NCBI GenBank assembly: GCA_900318535.1
Contig: ONKU01000028.1
Span: 1-39,899 of the forward strand
Reading direction: 5' to 3'
DNA length: 39,899 nt
Origin: an uncultured Prevotellaceae bacterium
Lineage (GTDB): Bacteria > Bacteroidota > Bacteroidia > Bacteroidales > Muribaculaceae
Shown here: positions 15,564 through 36,640 of the stretch, piece after piece
Layout: every line of letters begins with the position of its first letter
Numbering within the stretch: the first letter of the stretch is position 1
Position numbers and translations under genes: made by a program
Notes under the pieces: generated by a model
Database searches by the model: none
What the model was told of the DNA's origin: nothing
What the model saw: the letters and a program-made list of their open reading frames with translations, nothing else

Positions 15564-15611
15564 TTCTCACTCCTAACTCCTAACTCCTCACTTCTCACTC
15601 CTAATTCCTCA
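15564..15611. repeat. 7-nt-period stop array at the NlpC/P60 3' end
   Basis: On the minus strand the units run TGAGGAA, TTAGGAG, TGAGAAG, TGAGGAG, TTAGGAG, TTAGGAG, TGAGAAT. The first triplet of the first unit is the stop codon of the NlpC/P60 gene. The remaining 50 bp to the epimerase ATG (15510-15563) shows no further feature I can name. Confidence 0.85.
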
Positions 15612-16763
15612 AAAGTACCACGGGTGCTTGCGCAGGGCGATGATGCCCTTGGTGCCCACCATGCCCTTGATGCGGCTGGCACTCAGGGGCGAGTACAGAT
15701 AAGGATACTGGCTGGACTTGGGGTCCAGGCTGTTGATTTTGACCTGTCCCGAGCAGTGGATGTAGTTGCCGTCGCGCAGGTAGATGCCCACGTGCGTCAC
15801 GCGTCCCGTCTTCTCGTTGCCAAAGAACAGCAGGTCGCCCGTCTCATACTGGCGCCAGTCGGTCCCCTTCTTCATGATTTTGCCGGTCAATGCCTGCTGC
15901 GACGCGTCGCGCTGCAGGATGATGCCGTTGCTCAGGTAGCTCACCTTGCTCAGGCCCGAGCAGTCGGTCACCTTGGTCGACGTGCCGCCCCACAGGTAGC
16001 TCGAGCCCATCATGCGGCGCGCGGTCTTCTCGATCTGTGCGGCGCTGAAGCCCTGCTGGCTCCACTGCGACAGTTCGGCGCAATCGGCCGCATCGACCCA
16101 TCCCACTCGGCCGTCGGGGGTGGCCAGTTTCAGCCAGCCGCCCTGTGCCGTCTTGAATTCCAGGATGTTGCCCATCACCAGGTCGCTCACGGTCATGTCG
16201 CCGTGGGGCTCGGTCACCAGGCGCGAGTCATAGGCCGTGACGATGTAGCGTTTGGCCTTGCGCCACGCCTTCATCTGTGCCTCGGTCTTGAACGAGAGCG
16301 AGCTCTCGGGGACGTAGGCGATGTAGTCGTCGGCCATCTGCACACGGTACCAGTCTTCGGCCTTTTGCAGCACCTTCACCGGCGCGCCCATGATGCCCTG
16401 CGTGGCGATTTCGGCGCTGTGCTTGGGCTCGGTGCGCAGTGTGGCGATGCTCAGCTTCACCTGGGCCCACTTGCGCGAGGCGGGAATGCCGTCCTCCAGG
16501 ACGGTGATCTTGTCGCTGTAGCCGCTATAGCCGTTCTTGAACATGGCGGCCTGGATGGCCTTTTTCTGGGCCTGTGTGCCCACACAGCCCGTCAGCACCC
16601 ACTTGCTGCCCTGCTGGGTCGCCTTCACGTCCCAGATGGCAGTGCGCTTGTCGGGGGCGATGCGCTGCTTGAGGTCGGTCAGCACCTCGACGGGGGTCAC
16701 CGCCAGGGCGGCGACACTTGTCAACGCCACCATCAATGCTAGAATGAACGATTTCAGTCTCAT
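15609..16763 (-). CDS. SH3-domain NlpC/P60 peptidase (gamma-D-glutamyl-diamino acid type)
   Basis: A 384-aa exported peptidase. The start at MRLKSFILAL gives a signal peptide (about 1-21) and overlaps the previous stop by 4 bp (ATGA), implying translational coupling; the longer frame adds non-signal residues. A short N-terminal region is followed by two SH3-like domains (about 98-155 and 172-226) and the NlpC/P60 domain (about 240-384) with catalytic Cys268 (TDCSG), His324 (RVTHVGI) and His336 (YIHCSG). The layout matches YkfC-type enzymes that cut between D-Glu and the diamino acid in murein peptides, producing the L-Ala-D-Glu dipeptide used by the neighbouring epimerase. The stop codon lies in a 7-nt repeat array. 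Confidence 0.92.
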   Translation of the reverse strand: MRLKSFILALMVALTSVAALAVTPVEVLTDLKQRIAPDKRTAIWDVKATQQGSKWVLTGCVGTQAQKKAIQAAMFKNGYSGYSDKITVLEDGIPASRKWAQVKLSIATLRTEPKHSAEIATQGIMGAPVKVLQKAEDWYRVQMADDYIAYVPESSLSFKTEAQMKAWRKAKRYIVTAYDSRLVTEPHGDMTVSDLVMGNILEFKTAQGGWLKLATPDGRVGWVDAADCAELSQWSQQGFSAAQIEKTARRMMGSSYLWGGTSTKVTDCSGLSKVSYLSNGIILQRDASQQALTGKIMKKGTDWRQYETGDLLFFGNEKTGRVTHVGIYLRDGNYIHCSGQVKINSLDPKSSQYPYLYSPLSASRIKGMVGTKGIIALRKHPWYF

Positions 16764-18184
16764 TTCTTTATCGGAGTTATTGAATTGACTTTCAGATGGC
16801 TGTTCCACTTGTCATAGAACAGGTTACCCTTGCGCCACTCGACCTCACCCGGCTGGAAATCGACGGTCTCGCTGCGGATGTAGGTCTTGGCGGGGCTCAG
16901 CTTGTCGCCCACGCCCTCGTTGCTCGCCATGCGGTACACGTCGATGCCGGTGGCATAGTAGTCGTTAAGCGGGGTGCCCACGGCACTGCGGCCAAAGGAC
17001 GGGTCGGTGGGAATCCAGCCGATGCCCTCAAAATAGGTCTCGCACCAGTCGTGCCAGTTGATCTCGTCGGGGTGCAGCATCCAGCCGCTCTCCCAGCGGG
17101 CGGGAATGCCCAGCGAGCGCGCCAGCGTGATGTACAGCAGGCCCACCTGGCCGCAGTCGCCGTGATTGTTCTCGATCACATACTGCGGGATGTTGGCCAG
17201 CGTGCTGTATTCGCGGGCGCCGGCCCACGGCAGGTTGTAGCCTATCCACTCATAGATCTTGGCGGCCTGCAGCACGGGATTGGTCTCGTTGCCCACGATC
17301 TTGCGGGCCAGGGCGCGCATCTCGTCGGTGATGATGACGTGGCGCGGCTCGTCGCCCGTGTAGCGCTTGTACTCGGCACTGTTGGTGTTATAGGGTTCCA
17401 GCATGGCAATCAGGTCCTGCTGGCTGTAGTGGCGCTCGCCCACGTCATAGGAGAAGGTGTACTCAAAGTGCGTCGGCTTGCCTTTCTCGGCCACGGCCTC
17501 CATATAGACCGTGTGGTGCTTGCTGCCCTCACTGTAGGTCACCGGGCGGTTGCTGCTCTCCAGGCGGATGTTCTTTTGACGCAGGTTCTCGTAGGGGAAC
17601 GGCATCCACACGCGCAGCGTCTCACCGGCGGGCACGGCGTCGGCATTGACGTCGAGGGTGAACGTGATGTTCATGCGGCGCCAGTCACGCACGTTGTTCG
17701 CGTCGGCGGGCGTGCGCATGGCTTCCAGGTAGTATTTGCGGCGTGTCAGGAAGCTCTCGTGGTTGTCGGCGGCATTCTGGGCGGCAAATTCCTTGCCCAG
17801 CAGCCACAGGTTGCCCACGCTCTTGCGGAACCACATCTCCTTGCCGTCGATGTTCATCACCTCCAAGGCACGGGTGCGCTTCCAGTTCTCGATCTGCGCA
17901 TCGGTGGCCTCGGGCATCTTCTCGCGAATCATTTTCACACCTTCCTCAGGGGTGATGCGGAAATCGGTGCGGATGCGCTGCATGATGGTGCGCAACGAGT
18001 CGATGCGCACGGCATCGGCCACGCGCACCTTTTTGGGCAGGGATTTCATCACTTTCTCGGCACGGGCGAACTCGCCCTGGGCGATCAACTGGTCCACTTG
18101 CTCTTGCCAGTCGGGGGGCATCGCCAATCCCGTCAATGCTAATGCGCTGGCAGCCAATGCCAACAAACATTTTCTTGCTTTCAT
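16760..18184 (-). CDS. Exported transglutaminase-like protein
   Basis: A 474-aa protein with a signal peptide (about 1-22). The C-terminal half contains a transglutaminase-core domain: Cys344 in HGDCGQVGLLY, the His of NWHDWCETYF near 377 and the Asp of PTDPSFG near 393 form the expected papain-like triad. About 200 residues between the signal and the core form an unassigned N-terminal region (helical 25-130, then a beta-rich part). In bacteria such domains are often hydrolases or peptidases rather than cross-linkers. It is the first gene of the murein-processing unit and overlaps the NlpC/P60 start by four bases. A promoter lies at 18210-18239. Confidence 0.88.
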   Translation of the reverse strand: MKARKCLLALAASALALTGLAMPPDWQEQVDQLIAQGEFARAEKVMKSLPKKVRVADAVRIDSLRTIMQRIRTDFRITPEEGVKMIREKMPEATDAQIENWKRTRALEVMNIDGKEMWFRKSVGNLWLLGKEFAAQNAADNHESFLTRRKYYLEAMRTPADANNVRDWRRMNITFTLDVNADAVPAGETLRVWMPFPYENLRQKNIRLESSNRPVTYSEGSKHHTVYMEAVAEKGKPTHFEYTFSYDVGERHYSQQDLIAMLEPYNTNSAEYKRYTGDEPRHVIITDEMRALARKIVGNETNPVLQAAKIYEWIGYNLPWAGAREYSTLANIPQYVIENNHGDCGQVGLLYITLARSLGIPARWESGWMLHPDEINWHDWCETYFEGIGWIPTDPSFGRSAVGTPLNDYYATGIDVYRMASNEGVGDKLSPAKTYIRSETVDFQPGEVEWRKGNLFYDKWNSHLKVNSITPIKK

Positions 18185-18209
18185 ATTACCTGAACTTTAT
18201 ATTAACAGG

Positions 18210-18239
18210 CAAAGATAGGATAATTATTTGAATCTCCAA
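18210..18239 (-). promoter_or_regulatory. Promoter of the transglutaminase-NlpC-epimerase unit
   Basis: Minus strand TTG (18237-18239), 19-bp spacer, TATCTTTG (18210-18217), an exact match to the Bacteroidetes pattern 26 bp before the ATG at 18184. Confidence 0.75.
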
Positions 18240-18282
18240 GCCTGCGGTGCGTAATAGTTATCAACACCCGCCCGCAGTGCCG

Positions 18283-19689
18283 TCATTTCTTCTCCAGCAG
18301 GGCGACGTTCTCGACGTGGTGGGTGTGGGGGAACATGTCCACCGGCTGGATCTCCACGACGCGGTATTTGGCGTCGAGCAGGGCGATGTCGCGCGCCTGG
18401 GTCGCCGGATTGCAGCTCACGTACACCAGCCTGTCGGGCTCGGCATTGAGGATGACGTTCACCACGTCCTCGTGCATGCCCGCACGCGGCGGGTCGATGA
18501 TCATCACCTCGGGGCGGCCGTGCTCGGCGATAAAGCCGTCGGTGAGCACGTCCTTCATGTCGCCGGCATAGAACAGGGTGTTCTCGATGCCGTTGACGCG
18601 GGAATTGAGCTTGGCGTCCTCGATGGCCTCGGGCACATACTCGATGCCGATGACCTGACGTGCCTGGCGGGCCACAAAGTTGGCGATTGTGCCCGTGCCG
18701 GTGTACAGGTCATAGACCAGCTCATCGCCCGTCAGGGCAGCCATGCGGCGCGCCACCTTGTACAGCTCATAGGCCTGGCGCGAGTTGGTCTGGTAGAATG
18801 ACTTGGGGCCCACGCGGAACCGCAGCCCTTCCATCTCCTCTTCGATGTAGTCGCGCCCGCTGTAGGTGATAAACTCCTGGTCGGCCAGCGAGTCGTTGAC
18901 CTTGAGGTTGACGACGTAGAGCAGCGACGTGATCTGCGGGAAACGGTCGCGCACGGCGCCCATCACGTCGTCGATGGCGGCCTGGTCGTCCTGCCCGAAC
19001 ACGACGACCTCCATCACCTCGCCCGTGCTGGCGGTGCGCGTCATCGTCATGCGGATAAAACCTTGCTGGCCGCGGATGTCGTAGAACGGATAACCCCGCT
19101 CGACACACAGCTGGCGGATGAACAGGCGCAGCTCGTTGCTCAACTCGTCCTGCAGCCAGCAGCGCTTGATGTCCAGCACCTTGTCAAAGGCCCCGGGGAT
19201 GTGGAAACCCGCCGCATTGCGGTCGGGGAACTCCACGCCGCTGTCGAGCTGCTCGCGCGTGAGCCAGCACTTGTTCGAGAACGTGAATTCCAGCTTGTTG
19301 CGGTAGTGGGTTGTCGCTGCCGAGCCCAGAATCGGGTTGATGGCGGGGATGGGCACCTTGGCGATGCGCTCCATCGCGTCCACCACCTGCTGCTGCTTGC
19401 ACTGCAACTGGTACTCATAGGGCAGATGCTGCCACTTGCAGCCGCCGCACAGCCCGAAGTGCTCGCACATGGGCTCCACACGCAGCTCACTGGGCTTCAC
19501 CAGCCGCTCGATATGCCCCTCGGCATAGCTGTGCTTCTTGCGGTCGATTTTCAGGTCAATCACGTCGCCAGGAGCACCATAGGGGACAAACACCACCAGG
19601 TCGTTCCAGCGGCCCAGGCTCTTGCCCTCGGCCGCCACGCCCGTTATCTCAAAATTCTCAATTACCGGAATATCTTTCTTCTTTCTCAT
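18283..19689 (-). CDS. rlmD: 23S rRNA (uracil-5-)-methyltransferase RlmD/RumA family
   Basis: A 468-aa class B TrmA/RumA-family RNA m5U methyltransferase. Residues about 7-65 are a TRAM RNA-binding domain (ITGVAAEGKSLGR). Cys75, Cys81 and Cys84 in MCEHFGLCGGCKW, with a later Cys (KRCWLQ, about 170), form the [4Fe-4S] ligand set. The SAM site is VYDLYTGTGTIANF near 320, and the catalytic Cys is C426 in VYVSCNPATQARD. Assignment to U1939 rather than another uridine rests on family resemblance, since Bacteroidetes carry several paralogues. A -7 box lies just upstream. Confidence 0.92.
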   Translation of the reverse strand: MRKKKDIPVIENFEITGVAAEGKSLGRWNDLVVFVPYGAPGDVIDLKIDRKKHSYAEGHIERLVKPSELRVEPMCEHFGLCGGCKWQHLPYEYQLQCKQQQVVDAMERIAKVPIPAINPILGSAATTHYRNKLEFTFSNKCWLTREQLDSGVEFPDRNAAGFHIPGAFDKVLDIKRCWLQDELSNELRLFIRQLCVERGYPFYDIRGQQGFIRMTMTRTASTGEVMEVVVFGQDDQAAIDDVMGAVRDRFPQITSLLYVVNLKVNDSLADQEFITYSGRDYIEEEMEGLRFRVGPKSFYQTNSRQAYELYKVARRMAALTGDELVYDLYTGTGTIANFVARQARQVIGIEYVPEAIEDAKLNSRVNGIENTLFYAGDMKDVLTDGFIAEHGRPEVMIIDPPRAGMHEDVVNVILNAEPDRLVYVSCNPATQARDIALLDAKYRVVEIQPVDMFPHTHHVENVALLEKK

Positions 19690-19700
19690 AATCGCAGGTG

Positions 19701-19708
19701 CAAATGTA
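19701..19708 (-). promoter_or_regulatory. -7 box of rlmD
   Basis: The minus strand reads TACATTTG, matching TAnnTTTG, 11 bp before the ATG, implying a very short or leaderless transcript if used. No -33 box is evident. Confidence 0.45.
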
Positions 19709-19786
19709 CTAAAAACTTTTCACTCTGCCCCCTTATAAGGAAAAAGAAATACACACGACCCCACCCCACACTAAAACGCTAAGCCC

Positions 19787-20016
19787 CCAAAAAGGAAAAC
19801 AACAAATACAATGGCATCCGCGCCCCCATTGCCCCACGCTAAGACGCGAAGCCGCGAAGTTTTTAGGTCTACGAATTTAACGAATTGAACGAAGGCATCC
19901 GCACCCCAATTTGAGCGCGGATGCCCCTCTAAACTCTAAACCCTAAACTCTAAACTGCGAGCAACGCGAGCATTACTGCGGATGCCAATTCCTAACTTCT
20001 AGCTCCTAACTCCTAA
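19787..20016. repeat. Composite intergenic repeat, copy 1
   Basis: Modules in order: CCAAAAAGGAAAAC plus one AACAAATAC unit; GCATCCGCGCCCC; CCACGCTAAGACGCGAAG with CCGCGAAG; an ACGAA-rich stretch; a hairpin with 9-bp arms GGCATCCGC/GCGGATGCC (19894-19925); four 7-mers CTAAACT/C (19929-19956); GCGAGCAACGCGAGCAT (19957-19973); and a TCCTAAC array (19989-20016) that reaches the stop of the next gene. The part 19787-19925 is nearly the same as 21001-21158. No gene is present from 19709 to 20016. Confidence 0.85.
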
Positions 20017-20893
20017 TTACCAAGAGCCGGAGAGCAGGTAGTCGATCAGGGCGGTCACGTCGCTGATGTTGACGCTGCTGTCCTGGTTGCAGTCGGCGGC
20101 TGTCACATTAACGCCTGATGGATTTGATGTTCACGCTGCCGTCGCCGTTCACGTCGCCACGCAGGCCGGCATTCTTCGCGGTGAAGTAGCCCGGGTTGCT
20201 GGGGCCGCCGTCGATGTGGGCATAGGTCTTGTCCGAGTGGCTGTAATCGTAGGTTGTGCCCTGGCCACCCACCAGGCTGGTGCAGTCATAGAACATATAA
20301 GTTGAGTTGGTCACGGCAGCAGTGCTCCAACCATTGCCCACATAGACGGTTATCAAATGGGTGCAGCCACCGAACATGTTACTCATGTTTGTCACTTTGG
20401 ACGTATTGAAACTGCTCAAGTCAAGGCTCGTCAAACCAGAACAGTTTCTGAACATGCATCGCATGTCGGTCACCTTGGCCGTATTGAAATGACTCACATC
20501 AAGGATATTCAAGCTAAAGCAGCCATTGAACATGTGACCCATATTGGTTACCTCGCTGGTGTTCAGATATTCAATGCCCGTGATGGATTGAAGATTCCCC
20601 ATTAAGTAAAACCAATCGCAGGTAGTCGTCGGGCGGGCACTGGCAAACGAGGGGTCAAAGACCACCCGGGTCACATTGTATTTGGTGCCGTCAGTGTCCC
20701 AACCGGAATCGTTTTCGCCCGTGTTCAGGTCGTAGGTCGTGCCCGGGCGGCTGCTGCGGTAGTTGTCGTAGTAGAACGTCAGCGTCGTGTTCGACGGCGT
20801 GTAGTTGGCATAGGCCTCGGCAGCAGCAGCGCCGAGGGCACACATCATGGCCGTCATCAGGACGGCAAAACGAAGAAGTGCTATTTTTTTCAT
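20017..20893 (-). pseudogene. BspA-like surface protein with frameshifted dockerin tail
   Basis: The open frame runs 20893-20108 (261 aa). A signal peptide (about 1-25) is followed by BspA-type (DUF285) repeats such as FNTSKVTNMSNMF and FNTAKVTDMRCMF (about 90-200). A dockerin-like half starts GDVNGDGSVNI but then reads KSIRR and stops. In the next frame the sequence continues as a good dockerin end: NPSGVNVTAADCN, then QDSSVNISDVTALIDYLL, ending SGSW at a stop at 20017. The missing piece between VNI and NPSG fits a deletion of about 38 bp, the coding length of SDVTALIDYLLSG minus one base. The exported repeat part may still be made. A base-calling error in a near-repeat cannot be excluded. 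Confidence 0.75.
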
Positions 20894-20932
20894 AATCGAT
20901 GGGTTTTATATGGTTAATCGTGTTATTTGCTG

Positions 20933-20940
20933 CAAATTTA
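20933..20940 (-). promoter_or_regulatory. -7 box of the BspA-like gene
   Basis: The minus strand reads TAAATTTG (TAnnTTTG), 39 bp upstream of the ATG at 20893, in a very AT-rich stretch (20890-20985). No -33 match. Confidence 0.45.
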
Positions 20941-21000
20941 GTAAAAATTTGATTAAAATAAAAGAAAAAGACAAAAAAAGTGTCGCATCCGCGCCCCTCA

Positions 21001-21194
21001 CCAAAAAGGAAAACAACAAATACAACAAATACAACAAATACAATGGCATCCGCACCCCAATTGCCCCACGCGAAGACGCTAAGCCGCGAAGATTTTAAAG
21101 TCTACGAATGAAACGAATGAAACGAAAGCATCCGCACCCCGGTTTGAGCGCGGATGCCAATTCCTAACTCCTAACTCCTCATTCCTCATTCCTC
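21001..21194. repeat. Composite intergenic repeat, copy 2
   Basis: This repeats copy 1 in the same orientation and module order: CCAAAAAGGAAAAC, three AACAAATAC units (one in copy 1), GCATCCGCACCCC, CCACGCGAAGACGCTAAG, an ACGAATGAA stretch, a GCATCCGC/GCGGATGC hairpin (21128-21157), then a TCCTAAC/TCCTCAT array (21161-21194) that overlaps the 3' end of the TPR gene. It lacks the CTAAACC and GCGAGCA modules of copy 1. No gene lies between 20941 and 21185. Confidence 0.85.
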
Positions 21195-22118
21195 GTTGAG
21201 GGCCTGGTTGATGTAGTCGCGGCTCAAGCCCAGGGAGACGGCTTTGTCGATGTCGCGGGCCATGTCGTCGCGCTCGAAGCGCAGCTTGTTCAATTTGGCG
21301 CGCAGCAGGTACAGATAGGGGTCGTCAGGCGCCATTTCCAGGGCCGTGCGGATGTCGTCGGCCGCATCGCTCAGGCGTTTCATCGCCAGGTAGCAGTCGG
21401 CGCGGTGTCCCAGCAGCTGGGCGCTGGGCTGCACCTTGATGACCTGGGTGAACAGTTCGGCGGCACGCGCGTGGTTGCCGTTGTGCTTGTGCAGCAGGCC
21501 CATGCCCTCGTGGTAAAGGCCCGAATTGGGGTTGATGCGCTTGATCTCGTTAAACAGGTCCTCGGCCCGCTTGGTGTCGCCGCGCTCCATGGCCAGCACA
21601 CCCAGGGAGTAACGCGCCTCGGTGTCATACGGGTCCAGCTCGCACACGCGCTCATAGTCGTCGATTGCGCGCTGCACGCTGTCCATCTCCACGTAGAGGG
21701 CGGCACGGTTCAGCAACAGCGTCACGGCATGGGGCGTCATGTCCAGGGCCAGGGAGTAGTTCTTCACGGCATCAGCCAGATGGCCCTGATAGCGCTGCAG
21801 GGTGGCGATATTGCTCAGCAGCAACGAGTTGTTGGGGTTGTCGGGGTCGGCCTTGAGGGCCTTGAGCAGCCATTGCTCGGCCAGGGGCCAGTCGTGGGCA
21901 TAAATATAGGTCTGGGCCGAGTCCACGCACTGGAAATAGGGTGTCTCGGTGTCCAGGTCGGCAATATAGGGGCTCTCAGCCTTCTTGGGCTGCGGCTTCA
22001 GGCCCTGCTCCACCTTCATGTTCTCCTCGCCGATGGAGTTCACCACCTGTGCTCCACCCTGCTGCCAGGCCAGCGCCACCACCGCTAAAACCATGGATAA
22101 CTTTACTCTTCTATTCAT
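21186..22118 (-). CDS. Exported tetratricopeptide-repeat protein
   Basis: A 310-aa protein with a signal peptide (about 1-23, ending GGAQ) and a TPR array covering about 60-300. Successive units are recognisable, for example PNNSLLLSNIATLQRYQGH, AVTLLLNRAALYVEMDSVQ and TEARYSLGVLAMERGDTKR. It is probably a periplasmic scaffold; partners are unknown. The last codons (GAG GAA) and the TGA stop look like units of the adjoining 7-nt array, so the native C-terminus may have been replaced. It follows the MscS gene by about 100 bp on the same strand; no clear promoter was seen in 22119-22195. Confidence 0.85.
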   Translation of the reverse strand: MNRRVKLSMVLAVVALAWQQGGAQVVNSIGEENMKVEQGLKPQPKKAESPYIADLDTETPYFQCVDSAQTYIYAHDWPLAEQWLLKALKADPDNPNNSLLLSNIATLQRYQGHLADAVKNYSLALDMTPHAVTLLLNRAALYVEMDSVQRAIDDYERVCELDPYDTEARYSLGVLAMERGDTKRAEDLFNEIKRINPNSGLYHEGMGLLHKHNGNHARAAELFTQVIKVQPSAQLLGHRADCYLAMKRLSDAADDIRTALEMAPDDPYLYLLRAKLNKLRFERDDMARDIDKAVSLGLSRDYINQALNEE

Positions 22119-22195
22119 TTTAAACTACGAATTACACGAACTCAACTAATTTATAATGACCTTTTTGCAATTAGCGAAATACGTAGTTCCCAAAA

Positions 22196-22224
22196 CTCCT
22201 AACTCCTAACTTCTAACTCCTAAC
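22196..22224. repeat. 7-nt-period stop array at the MscS 3' end
   Basis: On the minus strand: TTAGGAG, TTAGAAG, TTAGGAG, TTAGGAG. The MscS stop codon TAG lies in the first unit (codons AGT TAG). Confidence 0.85.
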
Positions 22225-23377
22225 TGTTCACGTGGACGTCCATTTGCGGGAAGGGGAAGCGGATGCCGTGCTGCGGCAACTGCTTGTAGATCTGCTCGTT
22301 GACGTCGTAGAGCACGTTCCAGTAGTTGGCAATCTCGGTCCAGGCGCGCACGATGAGCGTCACCTGGCTGTCGTCGAGGCTCTCGACGGCGACCATGGGC
22401 GCATAGTTGGGCTTGGGCAGCAGGGCCGCGAGCTTGGCCTCGTGGGTCTCGCGCAGCTCCTCGGCATGGCGGCGCTGCCAGTGGAACAGGCGTTTCCACC
22501 AGGGCATGGACTGCTGTTCGGTCTCCTCGGCCACCTCCTGCTGGGGCTGCTCGTCCTCCTTGACGTCGGCATCGGTGTGGACGATGCGCTCATCGGCGCC
22601 CAGGATGTCGAGCACGACCTTGCGGGCGGTGTCCACGTTGTCGCCGTAGCTGATGCCCACGCGCCACTCGACGCGGTGGTAGGGCTCGGCGCTGAAGTTC
22701 TTCAACGAACTGGTGGCCAAGCCGCCGTTGGGGATGACGATGCGGTCGTTGTTATAGGTGTTGATGATGGTATTGAAGATCTGGATCTCGCGCACCGTGC
22801 CCTTCAACTCGCCAAACTCGATGTAGTCACCCACCTTGTAGGGCTTCAACAGCAGGATGAGCACGCCGCCGGCAAAGTTCTGCAGCGTGCCGCTCAGCGC
22901 CATGCCGATGGCCACACCGGCACTGGCAAAGATGGCGATGAACGAGCTGGTCTCGATGCCCAGCACGCCGATGACGGTGATGATGAGCAGGAACAGCAGC
23001 GTGATCTTGATGAAACTCAGCAGGAACGAAATGAGCGAGCGGTCAAAGTCCTTACGCACCATGATGGCGCGCGCCACGCTGTAGATCTTGTTGATGATGA
23101 ACTTGCCTATATAGAAGATCACGATCGCCGCCAGGATGCGCAGTCCCAGCGAGATGATCTGACTCGAGAGCGAGGTGACCAAGCTGCCCACGTCCAGATA
23201 CTTGAACTTGTCCACAATCTTGGCGGGCGTCATCGCCGCGATGGAATCGGGGTGGAGCTGGGTGGCCAGCGAATCGACATGAGCCGTCACCACATTGGTC
23301 GCCTCCTTGATTTTGTTGGCCGCCACGGTGTCGGGGGCGGCGACCGGTATCTGCATCAATATCTTGTCCAGTAACAT
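22220..23377 (-). CDS. MscS-family mechanosensitive channel
   Basis: A 385-aa inner-membrane channel. The start is placed at ATG 23377 (MLLDKILMQIP), because the longer frame would need a TTG inside the -7 box. About 70 N-terminal residues, possibly periplasmic, precede three membrane segments (about 75-100, 115-140 and 145-175). The pore helix region carries the family's SAGVAIGMALSGTLQNFAGG pattern, and the beta domain begins VGDYIEFGELKGTV with IPNGGLATSSLKNFS. The C-terminal part has an acidic and Gln-rich insertion (near 285-305, EDEQPQQEVAEETEQQ), then a helical linker. It protects against hypo-osmotic shock. Divergent from the PAP2 gene. Confidence 0.93.
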   Translation of the reverse strand: MLLDKILMQIPVAAPDTVAANKIKEATNVVTAHVDSLATQLHPDSIAAMTPAKIVDKFKYLDVGSLVTSLSSQIISLGLRILAAIVIFYIGKFIINKIYSVARAIMVRKDFDRSLISFLLSFIKITLLFLLIITVIGVLGIETSSFIAIFASAGVAIGMALSGTLQNFAGGVLILLLKPYKVGDYIEFGELKGTVREIQIFNTIINTYNNDRIVIPNGGLATSSLKNFSAEPYHRVEWRVGISYGDNVDTARKVVLDILGADERIVHTDADVKEDEQPQQEVAEETEQQSMPWWKRLFHWQRRHAEELRETHEAKLAALLPKPNYAPMVAVESLDDSQVTLIVRAWTEIANYWNVLYDVNEQIYKQLPQHGIRFPFPQMDVHVNS

Positions 23378-23398
23378 AATCTTTATTGAATTTGACTG

Positions 23399-23406
23399 CA
23401 AAAGTA
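23399..23406 (-). promoter_or_regulatory. -7 box of the MscS gene
   Basis: The minus strand reads TACTTTTG (TAnnTTTG), 21 bp before the ATG at 23377. No -33 match. Confidence 0.5.
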
Positions 23407-23544
23407 ATACTCTATACCCAAAAATAATCTTAATTCCCCGCTAAATAACGTGAACGTTGACGATAAATGCCCGATATCCGGCCCTGTTCGGGCGACTTTT
23501 TGGGAAAAACGCACTTGGAAGCCACGCAAAATGGATTTTTGGAC

Positions 23545-23552
23545 TACCTTTG
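23545..23552 (+). promoter_or_regulatory. -7 box of the PAP2 gene
   Basis: TACCTTTG, an exact -7 box, 44 bp before the preferred ATG at 23597. It lies in the divergent region shared with the MscS gene and rules out the longer upstream frame starting at 23450. Confidence 0.6.
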
Positions 23553-23596
23553 CAGCCGAAAAGAGTATTCTCACTAATAAAAATATGTCATTTTTC

Positions 23597-24382: not shown

Positions 24383-24405
24383 ACAATCACCACACCTCAT
24401 CAACA

Positions 24406-24461: not shown

Positions 24462-24471
24462 ATTAACAATC

Positions 24472-24502: not shown

Positions 24503-24536
24503 CGGCCATATTTGAATAATTACATTATCAAAAAAG

Positions 24537-28031: not shown

Positions 28032-28069
28032 ATTGACCGATTTTCCAACAATCAACAGATAACCGAAAT

Positions 28070-28456: not shown

Positions 28457-28467
28457 GAAGCCTGCAC

Positions 28468-29151: not shown

Positions 29152-29166
29152 ACCTCTCTCCCCGCC

Positions 29167-30066: not shown

Positions 30067-30093
30067 TTTACCCTCTTTTCCTCCTCCCGCCCC

Positions 30094-30678
30094 ATGAACA
30101 ACCTGTACTTGCAACTGTTCCTGACATTCTGCAAAATCGGCGCTTTCACCTTTGGCGGCGGTTGGGCAATGATCAGCATCATCCAGCGCGAGATTGTCGA
30201 GAAACACAAGTGGATAGCCCTCGACGACTTCCTTGACCTGCTGGCCGTGGCACAGTCCATGCCCGGCATCCTCGCCGTGAACATCAGCGTCGTGGTGGGC
30301 GACCGCCTCAAGGGCGTGAAAGGCAGCGTGTGTGCCGCCATCGGCACCATCCTGCCGTCGTTCCTGATGATTCTTGCCATCGCCATCTTTCTCACCCCCG
30401 ACACCATCAAGAACAATGCCGTCGTGAGCCGCATCTTCAAGGGCATCCGCCCCGCGGTGGTCGCGCTCATCGTCGCTCCGGTGCTCACCACAGCCCGTGC
30501 GGCAGGCATCAACTGGAAAACGGTCATCATCCCCGTGGCGGTAGCCCTGCTCATCTACAGCAAGATTCCCTACATCTCCAATCCCATCATCTACATCGTG
30601 CTGGGCGCCATTGGAGGGTACATTTACTATATGCACAGCCTGTTGAAGGGCGCGGGAAAGGAGGCCGGCGATGATTGA
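30094..30678 (+). CDS. Chromate transporter family (CHR), half-size subunit 1
   Basis: A 194-aa inner-membrane protein corresponding to one half of ChrA. The FCKIGAFTFGGGWAM motif and SIIQREIV are near the N-terminus, followed by VAQSMPGILAVN. Predicted membrane segments are at about 8-28, 73-98, 112-132 and 145-175. Short-chain CHR proteins work as pairs of opposite topology; the second gene overlaps this one by 8 bp. Substrate in anaerobic gut bacteria may be an oxyanion other than chromate. It follows DUF4296 by 27 bp. Confidence 0.9.
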   Translation: MNNLYLQLFLTFCKIGAFTFGGGWAMISIIQREIVEKHKWIALDDFLDLLAVAQSMPGILAVNISVVVGDRLKGVKGSVCAAIGTILPSFLMILAIAIFLTPDTIKNNAVVSRIFKGIRPAVVALIVAPVLTTARAAGINWKTVIIPVAVALLIYSKIPYISNPIIYIVLGAIGGYIYYMHSLLKGAGKEAGDD

Positions 30679-31213
30679 GAATTACCTGAAACTCGTCTGG
30701 GCCTACCTGAAAATCGGCCTGTTCGGCTTTGGCGGCGGTTATGCGATGCTATCGCTCATCCAGCGCGAAGTCGTGGACTCGGGATGGATCACCAGCCAGA
30801 TGTTCACCGACATCGTCGCCATCTCGCAGATGACGCCAGGCCCCATCGGCATCAACAGCGCCACCTACATCGGCTATGTGGTCACGGGCAGCGTGCTGGG
30901 TTCGCTGGTGACGACACTCACCGTGGTGCTGCCGCCGTTCATCCTCACGCTCATCGCCGCCCACTACATCGAGCGGCACAAGCAGAGCCCCTTCATCAAG
31001 GGCGCCTTCATGGGTCTGAGACCCGTTGTGGTCGGCCTGATCGCTTCGGCAGCCTTGCTGCTGATGAACAGCGAGAACTTCGGCTACGAGGTGAGTGAGC
31101 GCATAATCACCATTGCCATTTGCGTCGCCTCGTTCTGCATCGTCTATTTCACGCGCGTTCATCCCATCCTTGTCATTATTCTTGCCGGCATCACCGGCCT
31201 GCTCGTCTTTTAA
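30671..31213 (+). CDS. Chromate transporter family (CHR), half-size subunit 2
   Basis: A 180-aa partner of the preceding gene: YLKIGLFGFGGGYAMLSLIQ, then the canonical ISQMTPGPIGIN, with four or five membrane segments. The 8-bp overlap with the first half implies coupled translation and a heteromeric transporter. The GH9 fusion gene starts one base after this stop. Confidence 0.92.
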   Translation: MIENYLKLVWAYLKIGLFGFGGGYAMLSLIQREVVDSGWITSQMFTDIVAISQMTPGPIGINSATYIGYVVTGSVLGSLVTTLTVVLPPFILTLIAAHYIERHKQSPFIKGAFMGLRPVVVGLIASAALLLMNSENFGYEVSERIITIAICVASFCIVYFTRVHPILVIILAGITGLLVF

Positions 31214-31214
31214 T

Positions 31215-33737
31215 ATGAATCAACGACTGCTTACATTCATTTCATTCGTGGCCATGGCCATCCTGACGGTCCATGCCGCCGGATGGATCCGCATCAACCA
31301 ACTGGGCTACCTGCCCCACGCGACCAAGGTGGCTGTGCTCATCAGCCAGGAAAAAGTCGAGGTCACACAGTTTGAACTCGTCGATGCCTATACCGGCAAG
31401 ACGGCCTACCGCTCGACGGCCACGCGCAATATGGGACCGAATGGCCAGATGGCAGCGACCTGCCGTTTGGACTTCAGCGCTTTTGAGGACGAAGGGGCCT
31501 ACCGCATCGTGGCCGCGGGCATCGAGTCACCGATATTTCCCATCAACAACCGGGTGTGGGACGGTACAGCCGACTTTGTGCTCAACTACATGCGCCAGCA
31601 ACGATGCGGCTTCAACCCGTTCCAGCGCGACAGCTGCCACGTCAAGGACGCCTACGTGCGCTACCACCCCGAAAAGGAGGGCCAGCGCATCGACGTGCGC
31701 GGCGGCTGGCACGACGCGGCCGACTTGCTGCAGTACACCACCACGAGCGCCAACGCCATCTACCAGATGATGCTCGCCTGGCAACAGTGCCCGGGAGCCT
31801 TCGGTGACCAGTATCAGGCCAACGGTCTGGAAGGCGCCAACGGCATCCCCGACATCATCGACGAGATTTATTGGGGCCTGACGTGGCTCGACAAGATGAA
31901 TCCCGCCCCGGGCGAACTCTATAACCAGATCGCCGACGACCGCGACCACATCGGCATGAAACTGCCCAAGGACGACCCTGCCGACTACGGCTGGGGACCC
32001 AACAACGGGCGGCCCGTCTATTACATCGACGGCAAGCCGCAACAGCGCGGCAAATTCATGAACGCCACGATGGGAGCGGCCAGCACGGCGGGTAAATTTG
32101 CCAGCGACTTCGCCCTCGGCGCACAGGTGCTGGCACCCTACTATCCCGAGTTTGCCGCCAAAATCGCCGCCAAGGCCGCCGATGCCTATCAGGTGGGCAT
32201 CGACAAGCCCGGCAATGCCCAAACGGTGAGCGTGGTGTCGCCCTACATCTACGAGGAAGACAACTGGGTCGATGACATGGAACTGGGCGCCATCGAGCTC
32301 TACCACGCCACAGGCGACGCGAAATACCTGACCCAGGCAGTGGAATATGGCCGTCGCGAACCCATCACGCCCTGGATGGGCGCCGACAGTGCCCGCCACT
32401 ACCAGTGGTACCCCTTCATGAACATGGGGCACGTGCGCCTGGCTCAAGAGGCCAACGGCACCAACGACCGCTTGCAGGACGAATTCATCCGCAACATCAA
32501 GGCGGGCATCGAGCGCGTCTATGTGCGCGCCGAGCAGACGGGCAGCCCCTTCCTGTGGGGCATACCCGGCATCTGGTGCAGCAATAACCTCACCACGGCG
32601 ATGCTCACCCAATGCATCCTCTACCGCCAGTTGACGGGCAACTGCGAGTTCATCGAGATGGAGGCGGCCCTGCGCGACTGGCTGCTGGGCTGCAACCCGT
32701 GGGGCACGAGCATGATTGTGGAGCTGCCCCGTGGCGGCACCTATCCGCATGCCACCCACAGCAACTTCGTCATGGAAGGCGTCGGCATGCCCACGGGCGG
32801 ACTGGTGGACGGCCCTGTATATGCAACCATCTTCAACAGCCTCAAGGGCGTGAACCTGGCCGATGACATGATCAACATCAACGGCAACACCTATGACCTG
32901 TTCCAGCCCCATGACGTGGTCTATCACGACAACACCCACGACTACAGCACCAACGAGCCCACCATGGACGGCACCGCCTCGCTGACCTTCCCCTTCTCGT
33001 ACTATGAGACCGAGGGCAAGAGCGCCAGCGGCAACTTCCTGTGGGACGAGGGAGCCATCGTGCGCGGCGATGCGGACAAGAAGCAAATTTGCCTCGTGTT
33101 CACCGCCGATGACCGTGCCGACGGCGCCGAGCGCATCATCAGCACCCTCAAGAAACAGGGCATCAAGGGAGCCTTCTTCTTTACAGGCCGCTTTTTTGAC
33201 CTGTATCCTGACGTGGTCAAGCGCCTGATTGCCGACGGCCACTACGTGGGCAGCCACAGCTACGGACACCTGGTCTATTGCTCGTGGGAGAACCGCGACT
33301 CGCTGCTAGTGACGCGCGACGAATTCCGCGACGACATCATCAAGAGTTTCAACAAGTTGGCCGAGTTCGGCATCACGCCGCAGCAGGCACCGTGGATGAT
33401 TCCGCCCTATGAGTGGCACAACGCTACCATCGCGGCCTGGGCACGCGAGATGGGCCTGCAACTCATCAATTTCTCGCCCGGCACCCTCAGCAGCATGGAC
33501 TACACCTATCCCGGCATCACCGGCAGCAACCCCTACCGCGACAACCGCTGGCTGTGGGACCGCATCATGCGCTGCGAGCGGGAAAAGACCCTTAACGGCC
33601 AACTGCTCATGATCCACTTCGGGACCGACGAGCGCCGCACCGAGAAATTCTACGACCGCCTGCCCGCCCTCATCAAGAACCTCAAGAAAAAGGGGTACTC
33701 CTTCGTCTCCCTCAACGAAATGCTGGAAAACCGATGA
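31215..33737 (+). CDS. Exported GH9 glycoside hydrolase fused to a NodB-like (CE4) polysaccharide deacetylase
   Basis: An 840-aa protein. The ATG at 31215 gives a signal peptide (about 1-22); the longer frame reads into the transporter gene. Residues about 24-110 are the Ig-like N-terminal domain of GH9 enzymes (INQLGYLPHATKVAV). The GH9 domain (about 115-605) has the GGWHDAAD motif (Asp167 and Asp170) and the C-terminal NEPTMDG motif with proton-donor Glu581. Residues about 625-840 are a NodB domain: Asp632-Asp633 (TADD), His681 and His685 (GSHSYGH) for metal binding, and His801 (MIHFG). The third motif reads IPPYEW, lacking the usual Arg of RPPY. The product is secreted and should hydrolyse and deacetylate a beta-glucan or xylan-like chain, but the acceptor is unknown. 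It overlaps the acyltransferase gene by 4 bp. Confidence 0.92.
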   Translation: MNQRLLTFISFVAMAILTVHAAGWIRINQLGYLPHATKVAVLISQEKVEVTQFELVDAYTGKTAYRSTATRNMGPNGQMAATCRLDFSAFEDEGAYRIVAAGIESPIFPINNRVWDGTADFVLNYMRQQRCGFNPFQRDSCHVKDAYVRYHPEKEGQRIDVRGGWHDAADLLQYTTTSANAIYQMMLAWQQCPGAFGDQYQANGLEGANGIPDIIDEIYWGLTWLDKMNPAPGELYNQIADDRDHIGMKLPKDDPADYGWGPNNGRPVYYIDGKPQQRGKFMNATMGAASTAGKFASDFALGAQVLAPYYPEFAAKIAAKAADAYQVGIDKPGNAQTVSVVSPYIYEEDNWVDDMELGAIELYHATGDAKYLTQAVEYGRREPITPWMGADSARHYQWYPFMNMGHVRLAQEANGTNDRLQDEFIRNIKAGIERVYVRAEQTGSPFLWGIPGIWCSNNLTTAMLTQCILYRQLTGNCEFIEMEAALRDWLLGCNPWGTSMIVELPRGGTYPHATHSNFVMEGVGMPTGGLVDGPVYATIFNSLKGVNLADDMININGNTYDLFQPHDVVYHDNTHDYSTNEPTMDGTASLTFPFSYYETEGKSASGNFLWDEGAIVRGDADKKQICLVFTADDRADGAERIISTLKKQGIKGAFFFTGRFFDLYPDVVKRLIADGHYVGSHSYGHLVYCSWENRDSLLVTRDEFRDDIIKSFNKLAEFGITPQQAPWMIPPYEWHNATIAAWAREMGLQLINFSPGTLSSMDYTYPGITGSNPYRDNRWLWDRIMRCEREKTLNGQLLMIHFGTDERRTEKFYDRLPALIKNLKKKGYSFVSLNEMLENR

Positions 33738-34843
33738 ATCCGCCACTCGCAAAGCGCCGAAATACCACGTTGTCGATTTGCAAGGCCATAGCCATCATCC
33801 TGATGTGCGCCGGCCATGCCGAGGGACCCACACTGCTGGTGACCTTCATCTACCTGTTCCACATGCCGGTGTTTTTCATCGCGGCGGGCTATTTCTTTGA
33901 CAAAAATTACCTGAGTGACCCGTGGACCTTCTGCAAAAAGCGTGTCAAGGGCCTGTATGTGCCCTTTGTCAAGTGGAGCCTGTTTTTCCTCGTCTTCCAC
34001 AACCTGTTTTTCAAGATCGGGCTGATGAACGAGCACTACGGCAACTGGGCGGGCGGTGTCACCCACCCCTACGACTGGTATCAGTTCTGTCAACGTCTGG
34101 TGCACATCATTTTCTCGATGGGCGGCTACGACGAGTTCCTGGCAGGCGCGTTCTGGTTCTTCAGGGCACTGCTGTTGGCCAGCATCGTGTTCCTGGTGCT
34201 GTACCTGCTGCTTTACAACCGCCACAAGTGGCTCAGCCATGACACCGTGCCCGTGGTGATCGCTCTGCTGGCCATGGGCTTCTCATGGTTCAAGGTAGCC
34301 AACCACCTGACCATCGTCACCGTGGTGCAGGGCGGCATTCGCGAGTGCTGGGGCGTGCTGTTTTTTGCCCTTGGCGTGATATACCGCCGCCACGAGCACC
34401 GCATCCCCGAGCACTGGGCGTTGACGCTCGCCTTTGCCGCAGTACTGCTCGTCGGGGCATACCAGGGCTGGCAAGGCATGGCATTAAAGACCGAACTGCG
34501 CACGGTAGCCACCCTACCCTTCACGGGCGCCATCGGCTTCCTGATGGTACACCACATCGCTGCATGGCTCGACCGCCACGAGGGCATCGTCAAGCGCTTC
34601 ATGGTCTATTGCGGCAACAACACGCTGTACATCTACGTGTTCCACATCATATCGTTCAAGATTGTCTCAGCCTTGAAGATCTGGTATTACGGCCTTGACT
34701 GGGGCCAGATAGGCTGCCACATGGTCATCCACGAGAACAGCACGACCGACCTCTTCTGGGTGCTGTACACCATCGTCGGCACCGCCGTTCCCCTGCTGGG
34801 CATCACCCTCTACCGCCGCCTCACCGCCCCACGATCCTCTTGA
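33734..34843 (+). CDS. Acyltransferase-3 family membrane protein
   Basis: A 369-aa polytopic inner-membrane protein of the acyltransferase-3/OafA type, with about ten hydrophobic segments. The N-terminal RNTTLSICKAIAIILMCAGH has the expected pattern with a conserved His (about 28), followed by LFHMPVFFIAAGYFF. Such proteins O-acetylate surface glycans or carbohydrate monomers. The ATGA overlap with the GH9-deacetylase gene suggests that an acetylating and a deacetylating enzyme are made together. The substrate is unknown. Its stop is followed directly by a CACGCAAAG repeat. Confidence 0.9.
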   Translation: MNPPLAKRRNTTLSICKAIAIILMCAGHAEGPTLLVTFIYLFHMPVFFIAAGYFFDKNYLSDPWTFCKKRVKGLYVPFVKWSLFFLVFHNLFFKIGLMNEHYGNWAGGVTHPYDWYQFCQRLVHIIFSMGGYDEFLAGAFWFFRALLLASIVFLVLYLLLYNRHKWLSHDTVPVVIALLAMGFSWFKVANHLTIVTVVQGGIRECWGVLFFALGVIYRRHEHRIPEHWALTLAFAAVLLVGAYQGWQGMALKTELRTVATLPFTGAIGFLMVHHIAAWLDRHEGIVKRFMVYCGNNTLYIYVFHIISFKIVSALKIWYYGLDWGQIGCHMVIHENSTTDLFWVLYTIVGTAVPLLGITLYRRLTAPRSS

Positions 34844-34846
34844 GCC

Positions 34847-34938
34847 CCACGCAAAGACGCGAAGCCGCTAAGAGTTTTATTAGGATCGCTCGCAAGGGCT
34901 CGCAAAAAATAACTTCGCGCCTTTGCGCCTTTGCGTGA
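34847..34938. repeat. Inverted CACGCAAAG modules between convergent genes
   Basis: CACGCAAAGACGCGAAG (34848-34864) is repeated in inverted form at 34913-34938 (complement CCTCACGCAAAGGCGCAAAGGCGCGAAG, with one extra inner repeat). The loop contains two CTCGCAAGGG/CTCGCAA copies. It sits between the acyltransferase and DUF3667 genes, which converge here, and could act as a large hairpin or a terminator. The same modules occur at 19834, 21066 and 39785. Confidence 0.75.
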
Positions 34939-34963
34939 GGCCCCAACGGATGCGGATTCCAAA

Positions 34964-34980
34964 CTAGGGACTAGGGACTA
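34964..34980. repeat. 7-nt-period array at the DUF3667 3' end
   Basis: On the minus strand: TAGTCCC, TAGTCCC, TAG. The first TAG is the stop codon of the DUF3667 gene. This is a shorter, different-sequence version of the array at 15564 with the same 7-nt period. Confidence 0.75.
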
Positions 34981-35961
34981 GAAACTTGTTGCGTGTTTCC
35001 TCTTCCTGGGCTTGCTGATGATGTAGCTGATAAAGAGGATGAACACGAGGAAAGCGAGGGCGATGGGAGCATTGAGGAAATATCCCCTGGCGACATCGGT
35101 ATGCTGCATTCGCAACAGATGGACGCCATAGCTGGTGTTTAACATGATAGACCATAAGGTAGTGGCACACACAAAAGCCATGAGCACACGCCACAGGGTG
35201 CCCCACACCCCGTAAGCGAAAAGCTGCCTGTAGGTCAGGAAAACAAGCACCATGCCCAAAAGGAACACAAGCCATCCCAAGCCAGTGATGTCATAGAGCA
35301 TGTTCAGGATCAAAAACACGACTGTACTGAACACTTGCACGAAGAAGCCCTGCGGAATAGTGTGACGCGGATTGCGAGGAGCAAAGCGGAAAATGAAATA
35401 GTTGGGAATAATCAGGAAGGAGAGCATGATCAAGGAGAGCATGTCGGGGTGCTTGTTCAGCTCATCGAGAACTTCGCTCAGATAATCGCTCGGCGGCGGG
35501 AATGCGCCATTGATATGGACGTTCAGCCAGGCAAACACATTCGTGATGTAGGCCATCTTTTCTCCCGAGCTGGTTTGAAACATGCCGTTGATGGCGCCCG
35601 TCAAGAAATCGACAGCCACACCCAGAACGCCGATGATCACGAGCATCTTGATGGGCGGGAAACTCACCTGCCGTTTGCCGTTGATATAGTCGCTGATCAC
35701 ATAGCCTGGACGCATAAACAGCTGCAGCAGTGTGAAGGGCAACGAGCGCGAGTGCATGCCCCACACCTCGGCAAAGCTGTGCCACACGCTGCGCCAGGTG
35801 ATGCGTCCCAGACCTGACTTCTGCGAGCAATAGGGGCAGAAATTACCGACAAAATCATGCCCGCAGTTGCAGCAATGGTTAGAATCCTGGGAAACGAACT
35901 CGTTGTCAAACGGGTCCAGCTGCCATTGCCTGAATCGTCTGTATGCTGTTTTGAAATCCAC
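34978..35961 (-). CDS. DUF3667 membrane protein (paralogue 1)
   Basis: A 327-aa membrane protein of family DUF3667 (PF12412). The N-terminus is cytosolic and has a small zinc ribbon, Cys30-x2-Cys33 and Cys42-x2-Cys45 (HCCNCGHDF, NFCPYCSQ). The family core GLGRITWRSV and PGYVISDYINGKRQVSFPPIKML follows, then about five membrane segments. Function is unknown; family members are frequent in Bacteroidetes and often near regulators or PepSY-like genes. It is transcribed leftwards after the PepSY-A gene (92-bp gap) and has a close paralogue on the other strand at 37658. The stop codon lies in a 7-nt array. Confidence 0.9.
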   Translation of the reverse strand: MDFKTAYRRFRQWQLDPFDNEFVSQDSNHCCNCGHDFVGNFCPYCSQKSGLGRITWRSVWHSFAEVWGMHSRSLPFTLLQLFMRPGYVISDYINGKRQVSFPPIKMLVIIGVLGVAVDFLTGAINGMFQTSSGEKMAYITNVFAWLNVHINGAFPPPSDYLSEVLDELNKHPDMLSLIMLSFLIIPNYFIFRFAPRNPRHTIPQGFFVQVFSTVVFLILNMLYDITGLGWLVFLLGMVLVFLTYRQLFAYGVWGTLWRVLMAFVCATTLWSIMLNTSYGVHLLRMQHTDVARGYFLNAPIALAFLVFILFISYIISKPRKRKHATSF

Positions 35962-35980
35962 TGCCGTTGTTTAGTTCAAT

Positions 35981-36026
35981 AAAAAAAGGGAGGAAACGCC
36001 ACTGCCGTCAGGTCATGCCATCTCCC
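35981..36026 (-). terminator. Probable terminator after the PepSY-A gene
   Basis: On the minus strand GGGAG is followed about 30 nt later by CTCCC and TTTTTTT (35981-35987), a plausible intrinsic terminator with a long loop containing a small GCC/GGC stem. It is 28 bp past the stop at 36054. Whether DUF3667 (35961) has its own promoter after this is not visible. Confidence 0.5.
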
Positions 36027-36053
36027 CCCTGTGTATTAGATACGGTGACGACA

Positions 36054-36494
36054 TTAATCGTCGTAGTCCATGTCGATGACCTGGAAATTGCGGTTGAACT
36101 CAATCTCCATGCCGTTGTTGAGCTTCACCTCATAAACGCTACGGTGGCGTTCCAGCTTGATAACTGACTTGCCGGGGTAGTTCTGGTTGAGGTAGCTGCT
36201 GATCTGCTCAGGAACGACGCCAGCGGGGATCTTGCTGTTATAGCACTCGATGTCCTTCCAGTTGCCCGAACGGTCAAACTCAATCTTCTCACCGCTCTCG
36301 TAACGGATGGTGAAGTCATCCCAGTCGGCGGTCACCAACAGGGGCACCTTAGTGGCAAAATTGGCCTTGAGGAAGGTCTGTGCGGCCTGGGGCAGCTGAT
36401 CGTAGGTGATCACGCGGTCATCGTCATCGGCGCTCATAGTCAGGCTCATGGTCATGACCATAGCCATCAACAGGAAAAACTTGATATTCTTCAT
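36054..36494 (-). CDS. PepSY-like exported protein A
   Basis: A 146-aa periplasmic protein with a signal peptide (about 1-22) and two PepSY-like half-repeats (PF11396-type), about 28-82 and 88-146. Each half has a helix, then Tyr-rich beta strands: the first WDDFTIRYESGEKIEFD, the second YEVKLNNGMEIEF. Paralogue of the plus-strand protein at 38617, with which it shares the DW-DD-TIRYESGEK block. PepSY-like proteins are thought to inhibit or regulate proteases or respond to metals; no function is proven here. Upstream of the ATG is a 7-nt-period array. Confidence 0.88.
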   Translation of the reverse strand: MKNIKFFLLMAMVMTMSLTMSADDDDRVITYDQLPQAAQTFLKANFATKVPLLVTADWDDFTIRYESGEKIEFDRSGNWKDIECYNSKIPAGVVPEQISSYLNQNYPGKSVIKLERHRSVYEVKLNNGMEIEFNRNFQVIDMDYDD

Positions 36495-36500
36495 AAATTT

Positions 36501-36640
36501 TAGTTGTTATATAGTTTTTAGTCCTTAGTTGTTAGTTTTTAGTTTTTAGTTGCAAGGAAGCGGATGCCCTCTAAACCCTAAACTCTAAACTCTAAACTGC
36601 GAGCAAAGCGAGCATCCAGGGCTGCGAGCAACGCGAGCAT
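36501..36640. repeat. Repeat modules between PepSY-A and PepSY-B
   Basis: From left to right: 7-mers of the TTTTTAG type (about 36508-36549, TAG or its complement in nearly every unit), GCGGATGCC, four CTAAACC/T 7-mers (36571-36598), GCGAGCAAAGCGAGCAT (36599-36615) and GCGAGCAACGCGAGCAT (36624-36640). The last base overlaps the stop codon of PepSY-B. The CTAAACT-GCGAGCA junction is the same as at 19956-19957. Confidence 0.8.

Follow-up and report, generated by a model that had tools for sequence, protein, structure and literature searches.

Why do several genes in one stretch of a gut-type Bacteroidota genome stop inside, or right beside, short tandem arrays of seven-nucleotide units? The stretch, which we call the window, comprises 39,899 nucleotides of contig ONKU01000028.1 from an uncultured Prevotellaceae bacterium (assembly GCA_900318535.1). 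The original prediction for it was that placement at a gene end may be favored because such an array acts as a stop cassette: 7 mod 3 is 1, and successive units therefore give a stop codon in every reading frame. Our analysis shows that the distinguishing mark of the arrays is a preferred direction, not their stop codons. In our reading, to which we give a probability of roughly two in three, they belong to a known kind of tandem heptanucleotide repeat, expand in intergenic spacers, and persist or disappear depending on where they lie and which way they point.

The arrays were counted in a sample of their own genome consisting of the window and 40 stretches of 20 kb, or 839,899 of 2,924,856 bases (29% of the genome). 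At a score of at least 14, this sample held 41 arrays of period 7, against none in a second-order shuffle, together with 3 arrays of period 8 and 4 of period 9. At a score of at least 12, there were 57 intergenic and 2 coding arrays of period 7, against 0.0 expected under a third-order model of spacer DNA. Period 7 thus exceeded chance and 57 of the 59 arrays lay outside coding sequence, as in heptanucleotide simple sequence repeats. Further sets comprised 39 loci of close relatives, 41 further loci, a held-out set of three other genomes of the same genus, a class-level set of nine genomes, several of them in one long contig, and a set of arrays with ATGT/ACAT units in four genomes (the ACAT set). 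Comparisons between species used one genome per species. The class-level and ACAT regions were picked by pattern matches, a procedure that leaves direction relative to genes free. Genes were called with a simple in-house caller, so that start positions are rough.

Read 5′ to 3′ out of the nearest gene, the arrays are mostly AGTT-like (AGTTNNN). In terms of the sense strand, ACT-type arrays lie near starts and AGT-type arrays near stops, as seen in the own-genome and relative sets. This polarity was followed by 42 of 57 arrays in the own genome (p = 0.0005) and by 40 of 45 in the relatives (p = 0.00025), or 24 of 29 when the gap downstream of the MscS gene was left out (p = 0.0039); the further loci gave 16 of 19 (p = 0.0055). 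Because the ACT/AGT rule was found on the own-genome and relative sets, their p-values are after the fact, whereas the held-out, class-level and ACAT tests came after the rule had been formed. In the held-out genomes, 26 of 30 arrays followed it (p = 1.3e-4), with ACT-type arrays 14 times closer to the right edge of the gap and twice to the left edge, and AGT-type arrays twice closer to the right and 12 times to the left. The nine class-level genomes gave 61 of 66 (counts 29/2 and 3/32, p = 7e-13). Arrays with ATGT/ACAT units gave 29 of 35 (ATGT 16 left and 2 right, ACAT 13 right and 4 left), or 40 of 58 when the same set was scored by a looser count of keto and amino bases. Pooling of five sets (own, relatives, held-out, class and ACAT) yielded 178 of 217 (71/16 and 23/107, p = 1.8e-21). 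These counts exclude undecided arrays (11 in the own genome, 11 in relatives, 2 at further loci, 4 held-out and 12 in the class set) and arrays without a gap (0, 2, 1, 0 and 4, respectively).

The same direction governs arrays that share a gap. Among 37 neighboring pairs, a number that omits pairs with an undecided member, 32 read AGT-then-ACT (own 5, relatives 2, further 1, held-out 6, class 18), 5 pointed the same way (own 1, relatives 2, further 1, held-out 1, class 0) and none read ACT-then-AGT. Asymmetry between the replication strands was rejected by reasoning as a source of the polarity, because both directions meet in one gap. The array-free gaps of Muribaculaceae had no excess of AGT after stops (own genome: ACT 126, AGT 103), those of the class set had a mild one (ACT 51, AGT 75), and an excess of ACT before starts was present in the array-free gaps of every set. 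No such polarity was found at periods 8 and 9, where numbers were small; they were small, too, in the sub-tables for convergent and divergent gaps.

Position is likewise uneven. Divergent gaps held 3 of 68, 0 of 56, 1 of 34, 10 of 78 and 3 of 21 arrays in five sets, against 26%, 34%, 16%, 30% and 26% of the spacer DNA; in the genus of the window, the arrays avoid divergent gaps. Stop-side arrays outnumbered start-side ones by 47:21, 42:14 and 23:11 in the Muribaculaceae sets, and 10 of 21, 9 of 14, 5 of 11 and 21 of 42 start-side arrays in four sets ended within 10 nt of a called start. None overlapped a called start, against 24.3 expected, in part because the caller cannot carry a gene through in-frame stops.

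We then have to ask what part the stop codons play. All four minus-strand genes predicted to stop within an array were located with the stop triplet inside it. An array of TTAGGAG/TGAGGAG units at 15,566–15,611 holds, in its first unit, the TGA (15,609–15,611) of an NlpC/P60 gene with SH3 domains (15,609–16,808; PF00877, PF18348), and TGAGGAA/TTAGGAG units at 21,160–21,194 hold the TGA (21,186–21,188) of a TPR gene (21,186–22,118). A TTAGGAG/TTAGAAG array at 22,191–22,225 contains the TAG (22,220–22,222) of an MscS-type channel gene (22,220–23,401; PF00924), and a TAGTCCC array at 34,961–34,981, in a convergent gap, contains the TAG (34,978–34,980) of a DUF3667 gene (34,978–35,961; PF12412). 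For the BspA-like gene, also on the minus strand (20,108–20,893; DUF285, with LRR_5 below cut-off), an array of TTAGGAG units (19,984–20,019) does stand directly after a TAA (20,017–20,019), but the frame of the listed open reading frame (ORF) stops at 20,108, and 20,017 is reached in another frame. The open stretch past 20,108 that continues to 20,017 may reflect a frame change or an assembly error; this part, at 20,017–20,110, may be dockerin-like.

Placement near stops was not confined to these examples. Each array was placed at random in the gap that holds it, with an intrusion of no more than 9 nt into a gene allowed. Compared with this expectation, more arrays had a stop no farther than 5 nt away (27 against 17.9 in the own genome, 30 against 10.9 in relatives and 8 against 2.9 at further loci). 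Overlap with the stop codon itself was 1.3 to 3 times the expectation (18 against 11.8 in the own genome, 20 against 6.7 in relatives, 7 against 3.4 held-out), the class set being weak (8 against 6.4). Since both proximity and overlap exceed random placement, the claim that the arrays are placed at gene ends holds.

The explanation offered for this placement fared less well. The overlap just described speaks for a stop cassette, as does the own genome, where 62 of the 68 arrays had majority units with stops on both strands, compared with an expected fraction of about 0.20. A stop in every unit was indeed the case there (66 of 68 majority units in sense), but of the 36 stop-side arrays in the class-level genomes, 17 lacked a stop in some frame, which leaves 19 with stops in all three. 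Moreover, turning the arrays round would leave their stop supply about the same: all-frame stops were present in 36 stop-side arrays as found and 37 as flipped (of 47), 40 and 38 (of 42), 17 and 15 (of 23) and 19 and 26 (of 36), so that stop supply does not set the orientation of the arrays. Arrays also end just before start codons.

Protein ends point in the same direction. Arrays had been said to extend the stop codons of their genes, which was not confirmed as a rule when NlpC and MscS orthologues were compared across species: the orthologues share their end residues with or without an array, an outcome that had been named beforehand as one that would refute the original prediction. The C-terminus HPWYF*, present in the window, was shared by all 9 NlpC orthologues that have an array and by 9 of the 12 that lack one, with HPWFF* or HPWY* in the remaining three; 6 of the 27 loci, in which the motif was missing, were left unscored. 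Counted by eye, the common residue was the last one in 13 of 18 MscS proteins with an array and in 14 of 20 lacking one, and the window protein ends in VNS*, as do many relatives of both kinds. Five MscS proteins with arrays were longer by one to five residues, and six without arrays were longer too. In the TPR gene, whose last codons GAG GAA had been taken for a mutated unit, GAG is common to most orthologues, which end in NE*; GAA alone is extra and makes the window protein (NEE*) one residue longer. Given the orthologue ends and the flipped-array counts, we rejected stop supply as the cause of position or orientation; the stop cassette is a very improbable explanation, and we infer that the arrays were not built to supply stops. 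The overlap is likely incidental to arrays that occupy spacers as far as the gene edge, and it would follow from growth up to the last codon being harmless.

The gap between the MscS and TPR genes shows how freely arrays change at a single locus. The closest named relatives by MscS come from metagenome assemblies whose titles read Bacteroidales, Prevotellaceae or Muribaculaceae, several of them from ruminant guts. TPR lies directly downstream of MscS in 38 of 39 genomes, the window included, and the contig ends in the 39th; rearrangement junctions, considered as an origin of the arrays, are therefore unsupported at this locus. An array with a score of at least 10 was present in 18 of the gaps and absent from 20, three of which measure only 9–13 nt. 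The arrays at the MscS stop consist of TTAGGAG in some species and of GTTAATA, ATTAGGC, GAGATAA, GTTTTCA or GTTTTTA in others, and in one relative (L051) the array stands between the MscS stop and a flank that is present, array-free, in three others (L049, L063 and L089). Thus, at one locus, arrays appear, vanish and switch unit between species while gene order and protein ends are mostly unchanged. In comparisons of MscS–TPR arrays from different species, 41 of 170 (0.24) found the same unit, whereas the rate among the other arrays of the group was about 0.10, which fits the prediction of local descent or seeding. Copying of units within a genome was a weak candidate: sharing within and between genomes was 0.126 and 0.069 over all sets, with one genome, G226, at 0.81.

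The head-to-head pairs suggest another explanation, namely that opposed arrays form stem-loops that serve in transcription termination or in protecting mRNA ends. We folded tandem-gene gaps of 60–350 nt and compared them with shuffles. Gaps with a GT-then-AC pair were strongly structured, with median z values of −3.1, −4.0, −6.4, −4.6 and −7.8 in five sets (9, 4, 5, 13 and 6 gaps), against −1.0 to −2.8 for array-free gaps. One locus, L198, has a perfect stem with a GC-rich tip, and 17 of the 68 own-genome arrays lie within 40 nt of half of an inverted repeat (the GCATCCGC/GCGGATGC motif), against 2.7 expected. Transcripts are described as starting or stopping at quadruplex-forming repeats more than at control repeats (Rehm, 2015; PMC4692102), which also favors hairpins at transcript ends. 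On the other hand, in three sets gaps with one array showed less structure than those with none, and in the own set the two were about equal (z −1.5 against −1.0; 9 of 23 against 16 of 40 below −2); only in the ACAT set were single-array gaps more structured (−4.6 against −1.5). Complementarity within gaps was 14.3, against 11.0 in cross-gap controls (p = 0.065; 29 of 38 pairs with enough controls). Some array pairs are mirror images, while others share few pairable bases, in runs of 4–7 with a loop of 2–20 nt, and pairs are found in divergent gaps as well. A hairpin is thus a common outcome, not the rule. As a general rule it is unsupported, and we retain it as an unlikely rival for the paired gaps. 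As separate observations, locus L213 has, at 3960–4330, mirror-image arms of composite heptamers (GATGACA and GGATGTT types) around an inner palindrome, and its genome, G352 (loci L211, L212, L213 and L215–L218), has mirror-image heptamer arms in many gaps.

Contrary to the statement that no described element behaves in this way, heptamer repeats that overlap stops are already in print. TAACTGA repeats are known in Beggiatoaceae, Thiocystis, Cyanobacteria and five Bacteroidetes (MacGregor, 2015; PMC4679880); in that account the repeats carry stops in all three frames, overlap with ORF ends is stated, and Table 1 has 147 of 170 sets directed at a start codon. The present arrays resemble them as direct heptamer repeats, mostly intergenic, with the AACT strand toward starts, and TAACTGA is itself the AACTGAT member of the AACTNNN class. 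They differ in that TAACTGA is one fixed unit whose related units are described as rare in repeats, whereas many units occur per genome here: the window has TTAGGAG, TAGTCCC, CTCTAAA and others, not TAACTGA, which is found at relative loci L093 and L113. For TAACTGA, MacGregor proposed that the repeats are bound by a factor that acts in translation or binds RNA (PMC4679880). The TAACTGA units at those two loci and the closeness of start-side arrays to starts agree with such a role here, but AACT in sense precedes starts whereas AGTT follows stops, and one single-strand reader would miss one side; moreover, at a given gene the unit changes from species to species. The consulted text on RbpB and its 41-nt small RNA (sRNA) motif contains no UUAG and gives no support for the idea that the arrays are landing pads of RRM proteins. 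We consider factor binding quite unlikely.

A second described relative is G-rich. The repeats GGGAATC in Xanthomonas and GGGGA(C/T)T in Nostoc lie on the coding strand after stops, overlapping the stop, and on the non-coding strand before starts; inverted pairs are mentioned, the repeats are under-represented between divergent ORFs, and their length varies between species (Rehm, 2015; PMC4692102). They share with the present arrays the unit length, strand polarity, stop overlap and scarcity in divergent gaps, and these likenesses would favor G-quadruplex elements, which the same account discusses without finding a role, citing the slippage idea. Those repeats are described as G-rich, quadruplex-forming and of one unit, whereas the present arrays are AT-rich and have many units. 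Four G runs of at least 3 occurred in 1 of 296 arrays, and arrays without any GG or CC kept the polarity (93 of 111; 32/7 and 11/61; p = 4e-12). With the defining G runs missing, quadruplexes were rejected for the present arrays and have next to no chance of being the explanation. Heptanucleotides of Calothrix are also mentioned in PMC4692102. Period 7 is the commonest period of long simple sequence repeats in most repeat-rich genomes, for which slippage has been proposed (Mrazek, 2007, as cited in PMC4679880); these form a statistical class, with no polarity or gene-edge rule in the citing passages (PMC4679880, PMC4692102). For the polarity rule in Bacteroidota or for AT-rich units, we found no published account in a literature search that covered mainly open-access sources. 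The present arrays are an AT-rich, multi-unit variant, and both the element class and its polarity are already in print for G-rich units. The STRR heptamers of heterocystous cyanobacteria are likewise tandem repeats.

Across the phylum, four AACTNNN units in tandem occurred in 168 of 395 genomes, AACT at period 8 in 51 of 395, some of them being period-4 AACT runs, and ACAT at period 7 in 62. The reversed pattern, a built-in control, also occurs, sometimes in numbers, and other heptamers therefore exist. Two tandem TTAGGAG units were found in 17 of 37 genomes of the same genus (the own genome included) and in none of 24 genomes that belong to the order's other families. One genome, G350, is heptamer-rich, with very many ACATNNN arrays (124 and 109 matches).

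We return to repeats that grow in spacers and are retained by position and direction. A seed at a gene edge would be duplicated in steps of seven by polymerase slippage or template switching; in some gaps, a second, head-to-head array might arise by fold-back copying or from an opposite seed; and selection would clear copies in coding sequence, near promoters, and with units that hinder the next start. Slippage with position-dependent retention is the most likely mechanism, though unproven. Several results weigh against it. Slippage alone explains neither the polarity nor the recurrence of AACT/AGTT across a phylum. Avoidance of spurious starts accounts for the start side only partly: the start triplets in each start-side array averaged 0.33 as found and 0.43 as flipped, 0.36 and 0.93, 0.09 and 1.36, and 0.67 and 1.43 in four sets. 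Polarity is weaker in the own genome, and units were shared within Muribaculaceae genomes hardly more than between them (0.106 against 0.096). The ACAT set had 10 of 60 arrays in divergent gaps, and its 25 pairs, by the keto/amino count, comprised 15 GT-then-AC, 6 same-direction and 4 reversed. Finally, 13 of 14 TAACTGA sets of Beggiatoaceae that overlap an upstream ORF end are reported to read forward (PMC4679880), unlike the stop-side arrays here, which are mostly AGT in sense.

The window holds three further arrays away from called stops, with no strand assigned. One, of CTCTAAA/CCCTAAA units (19,927–19,956), has its nearest called stop 151 nt away and its nearest called start 237 nt away, and adjoins the inverted repeat GGCATCCGC...GCGGATGCC. 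The other two form a head-to-head pair at about 36,510–36,598: the first (from 36,510 or 36,518 to 36,551; sense ACTAAAA/ACTAAGG) lies upstream of the start of a PepSY-like gene (36,054–36,494), and the second (from 36,567 or 36,571 to 36,598; sense GTTTAGA/GTTTAGG) downstream of the stop of another (36,640–37,074). The inverted repeat is dispersed in the own genome, with window copies at 19,895–19,926 and 21,118–21,160 and a half at 36,552–36,570, and resembles a REP element or terminator core. The spacers at 21,000–21,160 and 19,796–19,925 are mosaic DNA with 8- and 9-mer runs (CGCTAAGC-like, ACAACAAAT and ACGAATGAA), whose relatives elsewhere in the genome are among 45 matches, some of which are heptamer arrays. 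At the gathering score, Rfam had no family at the arrays; its sole match in the window was an rRNA end at 1–70, a 16S rRNA fragment on the minus strand at the contig end.

Taken as a whole, the results argue against stop supply and quadruplexes as general causes of placement. The GT-rich strand points out of genes in such unlike genomes. A general law uniting heptamer repeats that were described independently would be that this strand runs 5′ to 3′ outward from genes in distant bacteria, whatever the unit, G content or direction of transcription, and that opposite arrays meet head to head. The arrays may then record strand-directed synthesis, by 3′-end extension or snap-back copying in spacers, and not an RNA function; the head-to-head geometry (32 pairs against 0 in the AGT/ACT count) is what 3′ ends would give if they were extended outward on either side of a spacer, as at telomere-like or fold-back-primed DNA ends. 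We regard this reading as speculative and unlikely. The MscS–TPR gap, in which arrays come, go and change unit while the neighboring genes stay, is a ready test locus, and the polarity suggests one measurable rule across three literatures, those on TAACTGA, G-rich heptamers and heptamer microsatellites.

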